Shown here: positions 17,603 to 21,918 of the stretch, in pieces
Numbering within the stretch: position 1 is the stretch's first letter
Layout: each line of letters starts with the position of its first letter
Assembly (NCBI GenBank): GCA_017306865.1
Contig: JAFKHH010000016.1
Location: forward strand, 1-64,000
DNA length: 64,000 nt
Source of the DNA: Filimonas sp.
GTDB taxonomy: Bacteria > Bacteroidota > Bacteroidia > Chitinophagales > Chitinophagaceae
Reading direction: 5' to 3'
The notes under the pieces: generated by a model
The model's input: the letters and a program-made list of their open reading frames with translations, nothing else
Told to the model about the DNA's origin: nothing
The model's database searches: none
Program-made: the position numbers and the translations under genes

Positions 17603-18931
17603 TTATTTAGTAGCCGGCAGGTAATACAAAACAACACGCTGATTTTTATTCAGGTATTTTTTTGCCACCTCACGTATTTCTTCCCGTGTAATTGATTTAA
17701 TCTCGTTCAGTTCTTCGTTTATGTGGTTAGTATTCTTGTTATAGAAGGTATAACCGTTAGACAGATTCTCTGCAACACCCAACATACGCGTGTTAGCGCT
17801 TACATAATTATTTTCTGCCTGGTTCTGGATCTTTTGATAGTCAGACTCACTGATCAGATCAGTTTGCAATTTTGCTACTTCCTCATCGATATCATTCAGT
17901 AGTGTTGTAAGTGGTGTATTATTATTTGGCAGGGAGTAAACAATATATGCACCATAGTCTTCCAGTGCATAGTTAAATGCAGCTACTTCCAATGCTTCTT
18001 TCTTATCATCTACCATTTTCTTGTACAGTTTAGAACTTGCACCACCAGATAAGATAGAAGAGATCATTTGCAACACTTTGCTGTCACGTGTGCTACGTCC
18101 CGGTGTACGGTATGTAGTTGTGATCATCGGTATTTGTATGTTGGAATCATACGCAGTATCCACTATTTCTTTGGTGATCGGCTCTTCTTTTACAACAGGC
18201 TGTATTACATCCGGGCCACGCTGTGCAGCACCAAAATAAGAAGTGATCAGTGTTTTTGTTTTTTCAATATTAATATCACCTGCTATTGTCAGTACAGCAT
18301 TGTTAGGTATATAATATTTTTTAAAGAAGGCTTTAAACTCATCCAGCTTTGCAGCGTTCAGATGTTCCATAGAACCAATCAGTGAACGGTGATAAGCATG
18401 ATTCGTAAACAGATCTTTGAAAATAGATTCAACCAATTTTCCATAAGGCCTGTTTTCGAAACTTTGTCTTTTTTCTTCTTTTACTACTTCATTTTGCGTT
18501 CTTACACCTATTTCATTAATAACAGGGTGCAGCATTCTTTCGCTTTCCAGCCACAAGCCCAACTCTAGCTGGTTGGAAGGAAATACTTCATAATAGAAAG
18601 TTCTATCCTGTGTAGTATTCGCGTTATTCTGCCCACCATTTGCAGAAACAATTTTCATAAACTCACCACGCTTGATGTTGTCGCTACCTTCAAACAACAG
18701 ATGCTCGAAGAAGTGTGCAAAACCTGTGCGGGCCGTGTCTTCATTTTTTGAACCGACATGATACATTACAGATACTGCTACAACCGGCGCAGATTTATCC
18801 TGGTGTAAAATAACATGGAGGCCGTTAGGCATATCGTACTCCGTAAACTGAACTTTCTGAGCTTTTACAATGGGCGCGGATAATAAAAACATCGCGGAGG
18901 CCATCATCAAACTCCTTTGCCGTTTTCTCAT
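17603..18931 (-). CDS. M16-family zinc peptidase (pitrilysin/processing-peptidase type)
   Basis: A 442-residue exported peptidase. A signal peptide covers the first 24 residues (SLMMASAMFLLSAPIVKAQ). The inverted zinc motif H73-F-F-E76-H77 is intact, with a downstream glutamate in NEVVKEEKRQ as third ligand. Members of M16B act in two-subunit complexes that degrade or process peptides inside a closed chamber; the downstream gene, which lacks the zinc site but keeps the R/Y motif, is the natural partner. The two genes are 41 bases apart on the minus strand and share the terminator at 15406. Confidence 0.93.
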   Translation of the reverse strand: MRKRQRSLMMASAMFLLSAPIVKAQKVQFTEYDMPNGLHVILHQDKSAPVVAVSVMYHVGSKNEDTARTGFAHFFEHLLFEGSDNIKRGEFMKIVSANGGQNNANTTQDRTFYYEVFPSNQLELGLWLESERMLHPVINEIGVRTQNEVVKEEKRQSFENRPYGKLVESIFKDLFTNHAYHRSLIGSMEHLNAAKLDEFKAFFKKYYIPNNAVLTIAGDINIEKTKTLITSYFGAAQRGPDVIQPVVKEEPITKEIVDTAYDSNIQIPMITTTYRTPGRSTRDSKVLQMISSILSGGASSKLYKKMVDDKKEALEVAAFNYALEDYGAYIVYSLPNNNTPLTTLLNDIDEEVAKLQTDLISESDYQKIQNQAENNYVSANTRMLGVAENLSNGYTFYNKNTNHINEELNEIKSITREEIREVAKKYLNKNQRVVLYYLPATK

Positions 18932-19031: not shown

Positions 19032-19484
19032 TTACTTTTTTCCATATATTTCTTTCGTATGGATGCGGTTATTTACAGCTTTCGCAATATTTGACATTTC
19101 TTCCTCCAGTGACTGGGTTGCATGATGCGCTTCCTGGTTCTTTATATACGCTACTACTGCAGGCACAAACGACTCACTTACAGAAACTGCATAATAATCG
19201 TCCTGCCAGGCAAATTGTTCTGGAATGAGACGAGTGTTATTTATCCAAAAGGAAGACGCGCCTTTAATCAACTTTGCAACGTCTGCAATTGTCTGTGTCC
19301 CTTTTAATGAAAGCAAGCAATGCAAATGATCTGTATATCCATTAATAGCTTGCAGGAAAATCTGCTTTTCCCTGCAATGGGCCATGATAAAACGCTGTAC
19401 TTGTAACCGGGCTTCTTTAGGTAAGAGCGGTTCTCTTCTTTTGGTGCTGAATACCAGGTGTACCCAAATTCTTACGTAGGACAT
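19032..19484 (-). CDS. REP-associated tyrosine transposase (RAYT, IS200/IS605-like Y1 family)
   Basis: A 150-residue single-strand DNA nuclease of the Y1 transposase superfamily. It has the HUH-type motif H53-L-H55 in YTDHLHCLL and the catalytic helix Y113-I-K-N-Q117-E-A-H-H. FAWQDDYYAVSVSES is the family's conserved strand. I start it at 19484 (MSYVRIW), preceded by a GAGGGTA ribosome site. The frame stays open to 19661, where it runs into the first REP-type hairpin, so that extension is not coding. Four REP-type units lie directly upstream (19612-20319), the expected substrate. It is a domesticated single-copy type, not a complete insertion sequence. Confidence 0.9.
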   Translation of the reverse strand: MSYVRIWVHLVFSTKRREPLLPKEARLQVQRFIMAHCREKQIFLQAINGYTDHLHCLLSLKGTQTIADVAKLIKGASSFWINNTRLIPEQFAWQDDYYAVSVSESFVPAVVAYIKNQEAHHATQSLEEEMSNIAKAVNNRIHTKEIYGKK

Positions 19485-20388
19485 TACCCTCAATTTTAGG
19501 TTAGGGGTTTGTGGATGAGAAGCAATGTAGGAGAAAATAACAAGATATGGGGCTACTAATATTTTGACAAAAGCCAAGCGAATATCTATTTTGAGAGATG
19601 CTTTATTTTTTCGTTCGTTGAAACGAACGGCAATGAAAGGCTTATTCAAGGTTGTCTTCACTTACTACATTTCAGCGTTCTCTATTACTCAATAGCCTTT
19701 CTTTACCGGCTGCTTTAGCAGACGAAGGCAAATAAAGAGATTTTTAAAAGCATGTGCTTGTCCAATTGCTATTTCTAAAACACATTATTCTTACATTAAT
19801 TCCTTTTATCGTTCGCTAAAGCGAACGGCAATGAAAGGCTTATTCAAGGTTGTCTTCACTTACCACATTTCAGCCTTCTCTATTACTCAACAGCCTTTCA
19901 TTGCCGTCAGCTGAAGCTGACGAGAGCAAATAAAGAGAGTTCTAAAAGCATGTATTTGTCCAATTGCTAATTCTGAAACACATTATTCTTACATTAATTC
20001 CTTTTATCGTTCGCTGAAGCGAACGGCAATGAAAGGCTTATTTAAAGCTACCTTCAATTACTACATTTCAGCCTTCTCTATTACTCAACAGCCTTTCATC
20101 GCCGTCAGCTTTAGCTGACGAGAGCAAATAAAGAGAGTTTTAAAAGCATGTATTTGTCCAATTGCTAATTCTGAAACACATTATTCTTACATTAATTCCT
20201 TTTATCGTTCGCTAAAGTGAACGGCAATGAAAGGAAGTTTCAAAGCTGCCTTCACTTATTACATGTCAGCACTGTCCATCCCCTCAATAGGCTTTCTTTG
20301 CCGTCAGCTTCGGCTGACAAGAGCAAAAAGAATAATCACACCTCCCATATTTCCCACAGAAACTTTACTTTAGCTACAAATATTATTT
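19485..20388. other. gene-free region upstream of the RAYT gene
   Basis: About 900 bases without a gene, filled from about 19612 to 20320 by four tandem units of 198 bases. The remainder (19485-19611 and 20320-20388) is plain leader sequence for the two flanking genes, which point away from each other. Confidence 0.8.
19612..20319. repeat. four tandem 198-bp REPIN-like units
   Basis: Hairpin 1 (type CGTTCGCT-AA-AGCGAACG) occurs at 19612, 19810, 20008 and 20206, exactly 198 bases apart. Hairpin 2 (type CGTCAGCT-GA-AGCTGACG) occurs at 19707, 19905, 20103 and 20302. In each unit hairpin 1 is followed by GCAATGAAAGGCT and hairpin 2 is preceded by its reverse complement AGCCTTTCATTGC (less well kept in units 1 and 4), so the two REPs face each other over about 50 bases. 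About 85 bases of conserved linker separate units. Stem changes are partly compensatory: the T-A pair of hairpin 1 in unit 1 is C-G in units 2 and 3. Confidence 0.9.
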
Positions 20389-21918
20389 ATGAGCGACACC
20401 TTTTTAGCTGCCATACAGCAGGGCTACACCTTCAAGGGAGAATCTGTAAAAATCGGGAATGCCATTCTCAATGGCGAAGTAGTGGAAGGCGCCGACATAA
20501 AACTACCATTCAGAACACTTAACAGGCATGGACTGATTGCCGGTGCAACGGGTACAGGCAAGACCAAAACACTCCAGATGATCAGTGAATTTTTGAGTGA
20601 TGCCAGTATTCCTGTTATATTAATGGATATAAAAGGAGATTTGAGCGGATTGGCTGCCGCGGGCGCTTCTAATGACAAGCTAACCGAACGTTACCAGAAA
20701 TTAAACCTCACCTATACGCCAGAGGCTTTTCCAACGGAGCTACTGACATTAAGCAATGAGAAAGGCGTGCGACTGCGTGCAACAGTCAGCGAGTTCGGGC
20801 CGATACTCTTAAGCAAGATCTTAGGTTTAAATGATACACAAGCAGGCGTTGTTGCCATGATGTTTAAATATTGTGATGACAGCAAGCTGCCACTTCTCGA
20901 CCTGAAAGATTTCATTAAAGTTTTGCAATATGTAAGTGACGAAGGGAAAGCAGAACTCGAAAAAACATACGGTAAAATATCTACTACATCTACCGGCACC
21001 ATCCTACGTAAGGTGGTAGAATTGCAGCAACAAGGCGCAGACATTTTCTTTGGCGAACCAAGCTTTGAAGTAGATGACCTGATGCGGATCAGTAACGACG
21101 GTAGAGGCATTATCAGCATATTGCGTGTAACGGATATGCAGAACAGGCCGAAACTCTTTTCTACATTCATGCTGCAGATGCTGGATGAATTATATGCAAC
21201 CTGCCCGGAAGAAGGTGACCTGGACAAACCAAAGCTGGTAATGTTTATAGATGAAGCGCATTTGCTGTTCCAAGAGGCGAGCGATGCCTTGTTACAAAAG
21301 ATAGAGACAATTATTAAACTCATCCGTTCAAAAGGGATTGGCATTTACTTTTGTACACAAAACCCACAGGATGTACCTGCTCCTATTCTAAGCCAGCTAG
21401 GTTTGAAGATACAGCACGCTTTACGTGCGTTTACCGCTGCGGACAGGAAAACAATAAAACAGGCAGCAGAAAACTTTCCTGTAACAGACTATTATAAAAC
21501 AGACGAACTGCTTACGCAAATGGGCATTGGTGAAGCACTGGTAACGCTGCTGAATGAAAAAGGCATCCCTACTCCTTTAGCGCATACTATGCTTTGCTCA
21601 CCACGCAGCCGCATGGACATATTAAGTGAATCTGAAATAGACACGATCGTAGATAAAAGCAAGCTCGCTACCAAATACAATAAAACGGTAGACAGCCAAA
21701 GCGCGTATGAAATACTAACAGATAAATTAGCGGAGGCTGAAAAGAAAACCGCAGAAGAACAAGACACCAAAAAGAAGCCGGCGGCAAAAGAAGAAGGTTT
21801 CTTCGACAATCCTATGGTGAAACAAGCCGGCAGGACCGCTGCCAGCATCATTACGAGAAGTTTGCTCGGGGTACTGGGGCTTGGAGGCAGAAGCAGCAAG
21901 AAAAACAGCCTTTGGTAA
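20389..21918 (+). CDS. HerA-like P-loop ATPase, DUF853 family (YjgR-like)
   Basis: A 509-residue cytoplasmic ATPase. Walker A is GATGTGKT at about 52-59, Walker B is LVMFIDEAHLLF near 283-294, and the segment FCTQNPQDVPAPILSQLGLKIQHALRAF holds the sensor and arginine-finger region of the HerA/FtsK group. The C-terminal 60 residues are a K/E-rich linker followed by a hydrophobic RTAASIITRSLLGVLG tail typical of YjgR. The biological role of this family is unsettled; DNA translocase activity is inferred from the fold. It stands alone between the RAYT repeat array and an SNF2 gene on the same strand. Confidence 0.9.
   Translation: MSDTFLAAIQQGYTFKGESVKIGNAILNGEVVEGADIKLPFRTLNRHGLIAGATGTGKTKTLQMISEFLSDASIPVILMDIKGDLSGLAAAGASNDKLTERYQKLNLTYTPEAFPTELLTLSNEKGVRLRATVSEFGPILLSKILGLNDTQAGVVAMMFKYCDDSKLPLLDLKDFIKVLQYVSDEGKAELEKTYGKISTTSTGTILRKVVELQQQGADIFFGEPSFEVDDLMRISNDGRGIISILRVTDMQNRPKLFSTFMLQMLDELYATCPEEGDLDKPKLVMFIDEAHLLFQEASDALLQKIETIIKLIRSKGIGIYFCTQNPQDVPAPILSQLGLKIQHALRAFTAADRKTIKQAAENFPVTDYYKTDELLTQMGIGEALVTLLNEKGIPTPLAHTMLCSPRSRMDILSESEIDTIVDKSKLATKYNKTVDSQSAYEILTDKLAEAEKKTAEEQDTKKKPAAKEEGFFDNPMVKQAGRTAASIITRSLLGVLGLGGRSSKKNSLW

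Follow-up and report, generated by a model that had tools for sequence, protein, structure and literature searches.

A non-GTAG REP family and a tandem array of facing REPs beside an IS200-class tnpA gene of Filimonas sp., very probably a REPtron

Class-2 RAYTs carry a Y---NP motif (Table 1 of PMC6006769). They act on GTAG hairpins, and passages of PMC8266576 and PMC3733652 report that GTAG REPs are concentrated near the gene and reiterated in tandem. Subclass 1.2 of the TnpA-Y1 proteins was set apart in 2018 for IS200-like proteins without shared IS properties (PMC6006769); Table 1 of that paper (Quentin et al. 2018) gives its motifs as DH[IV]H, WQ and YIKNQKEHH, and its entry for REP is 'no'. 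Our searches of the main texts of the open-access literature turned up no REPs ascribed to subclass 1.2, and on REPs of Bacteroidota they gave only PMC6006769, PMC3733652 and PMC3116915. Here we describe a locus of Filimonas sp. that is very probably, as judged from sequence, a REPtron of a non-GTAG kind, composed of an IS200-class (subclass 1.2) TnpA-Y1 gene and its cognate REP family. It is a REPtron of a kind for which we found no description in the open-access literature.

The window, a stretch of 64,000 nt (contig JAFKHH010000016.1), contains a hairpin array upstream of an intact Y1/HUH gene, tnpA, which occupies 19032..19484 on the minus strand (150 codons and a stop); a 209-aa frame from 19661 merely prolongs the tnpA frame mechanically at its 5′ end. 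The 150-aa product scores 83.6 bits with PF01797 (cut-off 23), in agreement with the preliminary description of a Y1 HUH protein, and 61.8 bits with the IS200 model NF033573 (cut-off 55). The same description called the gene a RAYT, a label that has to be withdrawn: the protein reaches 28.5 bits with the NCBIfam RAYT model NF047646, below its cut-off of 80, and has YIKNQ in place of Y---NP. Its motifs, D52-H53-L-H55, W93-Q94 and Y113-I-K-N-Q117-E-A-H120-H121, are the DHuH, WQ and Y---Q--HH of subclass 1.2, to which it is assigned by motif. H55, W93, Y113, Q117, H120 and H121 are invariant in 50 aligned relatives, and H53 and Q94 are kept in at least 90% of them. The gene is also of low copy, as in subclass 1.2, with one tnpA in the genome and two paralogues at 36% and 33% identity. 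An AlphaFold2 model of TnpA (pLDDT 88.7) has as its nearest folds, by structure search, the TnpA proteins of ISDra2 and IS608, and the RAYT-REP structure 4er8 came at rank 30. On these predictions TnpA is an IS200-class protein, of subclass 1.2 by motif, and not a class-2 RAYT.

Beyond the array, on the plus strand, a gene with a HerA-type C-terminal domain (PF05872) starts at 20389; since tnpA is on the minus strand, the array sits between divergent genes. The ORF at 17603-18931 we take to be an M16-type peptidase, so that neither neighbouring ORF of tnpA is tnpB, the one by Pfam and the other by our own reading. A terminator scan of the region returned one terminator-like site, inside tnpA, and none in the array, and we rejected terminators as an identity for the hairpins.

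The array (19606..20327) consists of REP doublets in tandem with a period of 198 bp, in three full units and a partial fourth (3.6 copies by TRF); the four units of the preliminary description are four hairpin pairs, the last of them without a linker. The units start at 19606, 19804, 20002 and 20200, and the four copies of hairpin 1 are spaced by exactly 198, as had been described, while the copies of hairpin 2, said to be in phase with them, keep to this spacing twice and then follow at 199. In every unit hairpin 1, on the plus strand, with the tail GGCAATGAAAGG or a near variant, is followed after about 50 nt by hairpin 2, on the minus strand, with a similar tail, and the two tails face each other. 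Hairpin 1 with its tail lies at 19611..19642 (59.4 bits), 19809..19840 (65 bits), 20007..20038 (64.2 bits) and 20205..20236 (56.4 bits). Hairpin 2 with its tail lies at 19694..19725 (50.1 bits; tail degenerate, stem unlike the other copies), 19892..19923 (56.7 bits), 20090..20121 (58.4 bits) and 20289..20320 (48.6 bits; register shifted by 1 nt). The 13-nt tail ascribed earlier to the hairpins is exact at four of the eight and differs by a few bases at the remaining four. In a few copies, among them hairpin 2 of unit 2 (window 19892-19923, minus strand) and a copy in locus L007 (1543-1587, minus strand), the loop runs the opposite way with respect to the tail (TTCA/TTTA, not TGAA/TAAA), as if the hairpin had been flipped.

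A linker follows units 1 to 3. Its copies, at 19725..19803, 19923..20001 and 20121..20199, compared over 79 nt, are 99% identical between the second and third and 90-91% identical between the first and the others, and to this extent the linker is conserved, as had been noted. That it belongs to an element is not supported; it is locus-specific DNA duplicated with the array. No copy of it was found elsewhere in the genome, and as a repeat family it was rejected on that ground. Searched against the same genome, the whole 198-bp unit matches only at the array, with just the hairpin-tail part found elsewhere. The proposal that the array grew by duplication of its unit holds on the 198-bp units and the 90-99% identity of their linkers.

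The preliminary description made its reading depend on further copies of the hairpins in the genome, and these are present. A covariance model built from 17 copies (8 from the array) and run on the genome gave at least 66 matches; 57 were kept (nine with E > 0.006 were dropped) and merged to 52 places, 44 of them outside the array, which is a lower bound, the scoring having covered 150 of 3177 first-look candidates. A mechanical ORF test, whose masks are not gene calls, puts 50 of the 52 places in intergenic DNA, the two exceptions being the 5′ over-extension of the tnpA frame and a 429-aa frame. The repeats are not a product of chance: the 13-mer tail occurs 11 times in the 6.15-Mb genome and its backwards pattern 0 times. 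Across the 17 copies 95.6% of stem cells are paired, where shuffles give 79.3%, and 21 cells have changed on both sides, where shuffles give 5.6. The number of pairs with a both-side change (4 against 3.0; 102 of 500 shuffles do as well) and that of further pair types (13 against 10.9; 42 of 500 do) are not striking. Among 40 of the 44 dispersed copies, those 45 nt long, the stem varies with compensation: each of its eight pairs is standard in 32-40 of the 40, and the innermost is C-G in 19 and A-T in 19, whereas loop (T..AA) and tail (AATGAA) hardly vary.

In 49 non-array copies, chosen by a tail-and-stem pattern rather than by the model, so that a few may be chance matches, conservation extends from about -30 to +17, counted from the start of the tail, and beyond that drops to background, with a slight bump at +28. 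Since conservation ends at about +17, the unit that disperses is one REP, about 47 bp long and made up of a T-rich tract, a variable but largely compensated stem of 8 bp, a loop with TAAA or TGAA in most copies, and the fixed tail. The fixed flank reads GGCAATGAAAGG on one strand and CCTTTCATTGCC on the other, with no GT[AG]G foot and hence nothing of the GTAG foot of canonical REPs. Of ten close pairs (<200 bp) outside the array, judged by eye, nine are direct, one is inverted and none is facing. The term REPIN-like doublet therefore suits the array, where the hairpins do face each other, but not the rest of the genome, where an inverted pair is not the dispersed replicating unit. As short palindromes with dispersed intergenic copies and a one-sided tag, present in moderate rather than high number, the elements are REPs, and the Y1 gene is flanked by predicted members of its own REP family, as in a REPtron.

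The genome has five PF01797 matches, four of them above the Pfam cut-off, and only tnpA has a REP match within 5 kb, for which reason we rejected another Y1 gene of this genome as the one responsible for the REPs. The nearest REP matches to the genes on contigs C38 and C42 are about 6 and 7 kb off, and the stretches fetched around these genes (L010 and L011) contain no match to the family. L010 (G000:C38:21625-25014; tnpA at 1492-1953, flank to 2260) holds a second gene of subclass 1.2 type. This C38 paralogue adjoins a palindrome of its own, TATCCCNNNGGGATA (TATCCC-TAC/GTA-GGGATA), whose exact pattern has three occurrences genome-wide, each of them next to the gene; gene and palindrome are perhaps a REPtron that has not spread. 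L213 (G000:C29:726783) and L216 (G000:C32:590513) are Y1-like genes of class-2 type with the motifs YIHENP and YIHGNP, the latter below the Pfam cut-off. By eye, L213 seems flanked by GC-rich palindromes of another kind; a scan around both genes found core-like words in L213, and hairpin plus tail in neither.

We compared 112 tnpA loci, 80 from named genome contigs, 3 from the Filimonas genome itself and 29 from the family. The contig scan was seeded with peptides including YIKNQEAH, and this motif is therefore over-represented among the loci. By bit-score order the loci were divided, at a chosen split at L049, into 56 close and 56 distant ones, with a few short fragments of close type among the distant. 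Near-identical loci were counted apart (L022/L122, L023/L024, L020/L025, L034/L035, L041/L043, L068/L070 and L073/L074), and related strains do not supply independent loci. G044, a genome of the same family, has a tnpA protein identical to the one of L022. In 83 sources (the 80 named loci, L010, L011 and the window), many of the matches to the REP model adjoin tnpA. The 9-mer GCTAAAGCC lies within 400 bp of tnpA in 43 of the 56 closest loci, where 0.5 would be expected by a control made of chunks of these loci, mostly coding. In intergenic DNA of the 56 loci, the 22.0 kb near tnpA hold 63 GC-N4-GC hairpins and the 19.3 kb elsewhere hold 0; the far DNA comes from the longer loci only, and the close set also holds 11 far hairpins, all in ORF-masked DNA. 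Hairpins of any sequence (stem of at least 7) number 5.53 per intergenic kb near and 2.31 far from tnpA in the close set, and 4.04 and 1.64 in the distant set; because this excess of hairpins of any kind near tnpA is a mild one, about 2.4-fold, it is the specific core and tail that carry the argument. In the full set of 112 loci, type A hairpins number 77 in 127.6 kb near tnpA and 6 in 521.4 kb far from it, and those of type B (CCTACGG/CCGTAGG core) 27 near and 1 far, with 13 of the 27 in one locus.

Facing REP pairs upstream of tnpA are found in some relatives too. Loci L161, L170, L172 and L012 (at 2030-2240 and 2680-2850) have a smaller hairpin of the TGGCTAAAGCCA kind, 20-40 nt before the main one, which by eye has no obvious counterpart in the array of the window. 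Seven Pedobacter-type loci (L015, L016, L020, L021 and L023-L025) share the same frame downstream of tnpA, which we take to be an acetyltransferase-like start.

On a tree of 102 of the 112 proteins (those of at least 125 aa), type A and type B cores are separated by one change, counted over 34 A and 6 B rows with 2 mixed and 60 unlabelled rows dropped. Type B set against all other rows is not clustered (5 changes, with 49 of 500 shuffles as low). The tail GG[CT]AATGA accompanies 19 of 22 loci of the nearest clade and 2 of 28 others (Fisher 8.7e-9), and the tail GG(C/G)AATT(C/G)A 3 of 22 and 9 of 28; the clade of 22 was picked on the tree once the tails were known, and the comparison covers 28 of the 32 remaining rows of the branch (L039, L041, L043 and L140 being left out). 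Hairpin core and tail, as predicted from these sequences, differ by tnpA clade.

The REPs and tnpA also tend to occur in the same genomes. Among 345 Bacteroidia genomes, REP matches were present in 10 of 19 with a close tnpA (E <= 1e-38) and in 6 of 326 without one (Fisher 1.1e-10), and with the Filimonas genome left out the figures were 9 of 18 and 6 of 326 (1.3e-9). A stricter cut for tnpA (E <= 1e-45) gave 8 of 10 against 8 of 335, or 7 of 9 against 8 of 335 with that genome left out (2.1e-9). These genomes are not fully independent, because three of them (G257, G373 and G442) belong to one genus. In six of the nine other genomes with both (G224, G233, G257, G332, G442 and G456) a REP match lies within 300 bp of tnpA. 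Nine of the 19 class genomes have a close tnpA and no REP match, under stricter filters and with a model made from copies of the Filimonas genome. One genome, G055, has 20 REP matches (type A) and distant Y1 genes only, the best of which is flanked by type B palindromes; the flanks of the distant tnpA of L144, from this genome, hold thirteen palindromes with CCTACGG/CCGTAGG cores. The family sample shows a weak link when any homologue (E <= 1e-10) is counted (7 of 74 against 1 of 73; Fisher 0.063); for the four genomes of the nearest clade, a split set after viewing the tree, it is 3 of 4 against 5 of 143 (4.2e-4).

A regular tandem array had been presented as unusual, a view that the relatives contradict, since tandem arrays beside such genes recur in them. 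Counting periods of at least 10 bp and regions at least half intergenic, we found 41 tandem-repeat regions (9531 bases) within 1 kb of tnpA, in 37 of the 112 loci, where intergenic DNA amounts to 55.9 kb; the 45.7 kb farther away have 12 regions (846 bases). Some units contain REP parts, such as the nine copies of 50 bp in L026 (1-459) and the repeats of 16-20 bp, made of hairpin arm and tail, in L123 (1971-2087), L125 (1944-2022) and L133 (1281-1463), with tnpA taken on the plus strand; these four, with periods of 16-50 bp, come from other genera of the family and an Ignavibacteria MAG. Other tandem units beside tnpA are without evident REP. The arrays of the relatives may be driven by TnpA or may come from replication slippage provoked by the hairpins, and the sequence fits either.

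Three other explanations have to be set against a REPtron of the non-GTAG kind. If the hairpins were ordinary transcription or mRNA elements, such as terminators or mRNA stabilisers, and lay beside tnpA by chance, their intergenic position and hairpin-forming capacity would be accounted for, and parts of the literature report such side roles for REPs elsewhere. Chance, however, does not explain why the GC-N4-GC hairpins fall near tnpA in all 63 cases under an intergenic control, nor why tail and core track the tnpA clade; the array, moreover, lies between divergent genes, and the sole terminator-like site is inside tnpA. We regard this explanation as very improbable.

A canonical RAYT with REPINs, in which a Y---NP transposase acts on inverted REP doublets as the mobile replicating unit, would match the facing doublets beside a Y1 gene and the genome-wide copies of the hairpins, yet the protein falls below the RAYT model cut-off and has Y---Q--HH, the REPs have no GTAG foot, the dispersed copies are single or in direct pairs, none of them facing, and conservation stops about 17 nt past the tail start. 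The tests of motif, model and orientation largely refute it, and we give it hardly any credence. The remaining candidate is a decayed IS200 insertion sequence whose former ends are the hairpins, amplified by chance. An IS200-class protein would suit it, as would the subterminal hairpins that a passage of PMC6006769 gives for IS200 elements. Against it, the gene is single, with paralogues as distant as 36% and 33%, its catalytic residues are intact, the hairpins stand in pairs upstream and not one at each end, 44 places have the hairpin without the gene, and seven Pedobacter-type loci keep the same frame downstream of tnpA. This is the least probable explanation of all.

The association of gene and palindromes, in sequence, thus points to the REPs as the putative own substrate of TnpA, and suggests that a TnpA-Y1 branch catalogued without repeat partners does have them. 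By analogy with IS608, ISDra2 and TnpA-REP, TnpA would act in dimeric form on REP DNA in the single-stranded state, to which replication probably exposes it. TnpA would recognise the loop and the tail, the latter read on the other strand as a 5′ foot, CCTTTCATTGCC, in the position where canonical REPs hold GTAG. Tyr113 would then cut beside the hairpin, as in the same model systems, and rejoining would follow; now and then this cutting and rejoining would put single REPs elsewhere. In the array, a stretch with facing REP pairs and the DNA between them would have been duplicated in tandem to give four pairs. Read on the bottom strand, the hairpin has the conserved block on its 5′ side, as it has the guide sequences in GTAG REPs and IS608, and the loop reads TTTA, as it does in a Marinomonas REP; because of this block and loop we would guess that the bottom strand is the likelier substrate.

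A wider reading, which we put forward tentatively and ourselves think somewhat doubtful, is that TnpA-Y1 proteins of subclass 1.2 mobilise a large, overlooked superfamily of non-GTAG REPs in Bacteroidota, with a clade-specific code of core and tail, and amplify REPs locally into arrays (periods from about 13 to about 320 bp) beside their own genes, the 198-bp array included. As part of the same tentative reading, the proposed code would comprise GC-TNNA-GC with CAATGAA or AATT(C/G)A tails in one branch and CCTACGG/CCGTAGG in another. For subclass 1.2 the cognate hairpin family would offer a candidate substrate, with biochemistry that is directly testable; REP domestication would be placed inside the IS200 class itself, beyond the GTAG/RAYT branch; and the way in which core and tail change together along the protein tree would be a natural recognition code to decipher.

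The TnpA described here resembles subclass 1.2, as characterised in Table 1 and the related passages of PMC6006769, in its DHuH, WQ and Y---Q--HH motifs, its length (about 148 aa in the subclass), its low copy number and its occurrence in Bacteroidetes. It differs in having at its gene, and at those of many close relatives, a flanking palindrome family that also disperses, where the table has 'no' for REP. With RAYT/TnpA-REP, GTAG REPs and REPtrons, as presented in passages of PMC2817692, PMC8266576 and PMC3733652, the locus shares a Y1 gene with its own intergenic, coevolving palindrome family, and with GTAG REPs also the clusters adjacent to the gene and the tandem REP clusters. The core by itself is not diagnostic, because GC-TTTA-GC also occurs within a GTAG REP of Haemophilus influenzae, in which GGCTTTAGCC lies (PMC2817692). 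What sets our family apart from RAYTs, GTAG REPs and REPINs is the lack of a GTAG foot, the CAATGAA tail on one side, the IS200-class protein and the single dispersed REP. The CGTC-tagged REPs described in part of PMC3733652 are likewise non-GTAG palindromes and reported from Bacteroidetes too, but they have a CGTC tag and, according to that paper, no transposase association, whereas the present family has a CAATGAA tag and stands beside a Y1 gene. Elements of IS200/IS605 type such as IS608 and ISDra2 would have in common with this locus, by analogy, the fold, the HUH motif with its Tyr and hairpin substrates. Here, in contrast, there are no multiple near-identical mobile copies of gene and ends, but one gene copy, many hairpins without a gene and no neighbouring tnpB.
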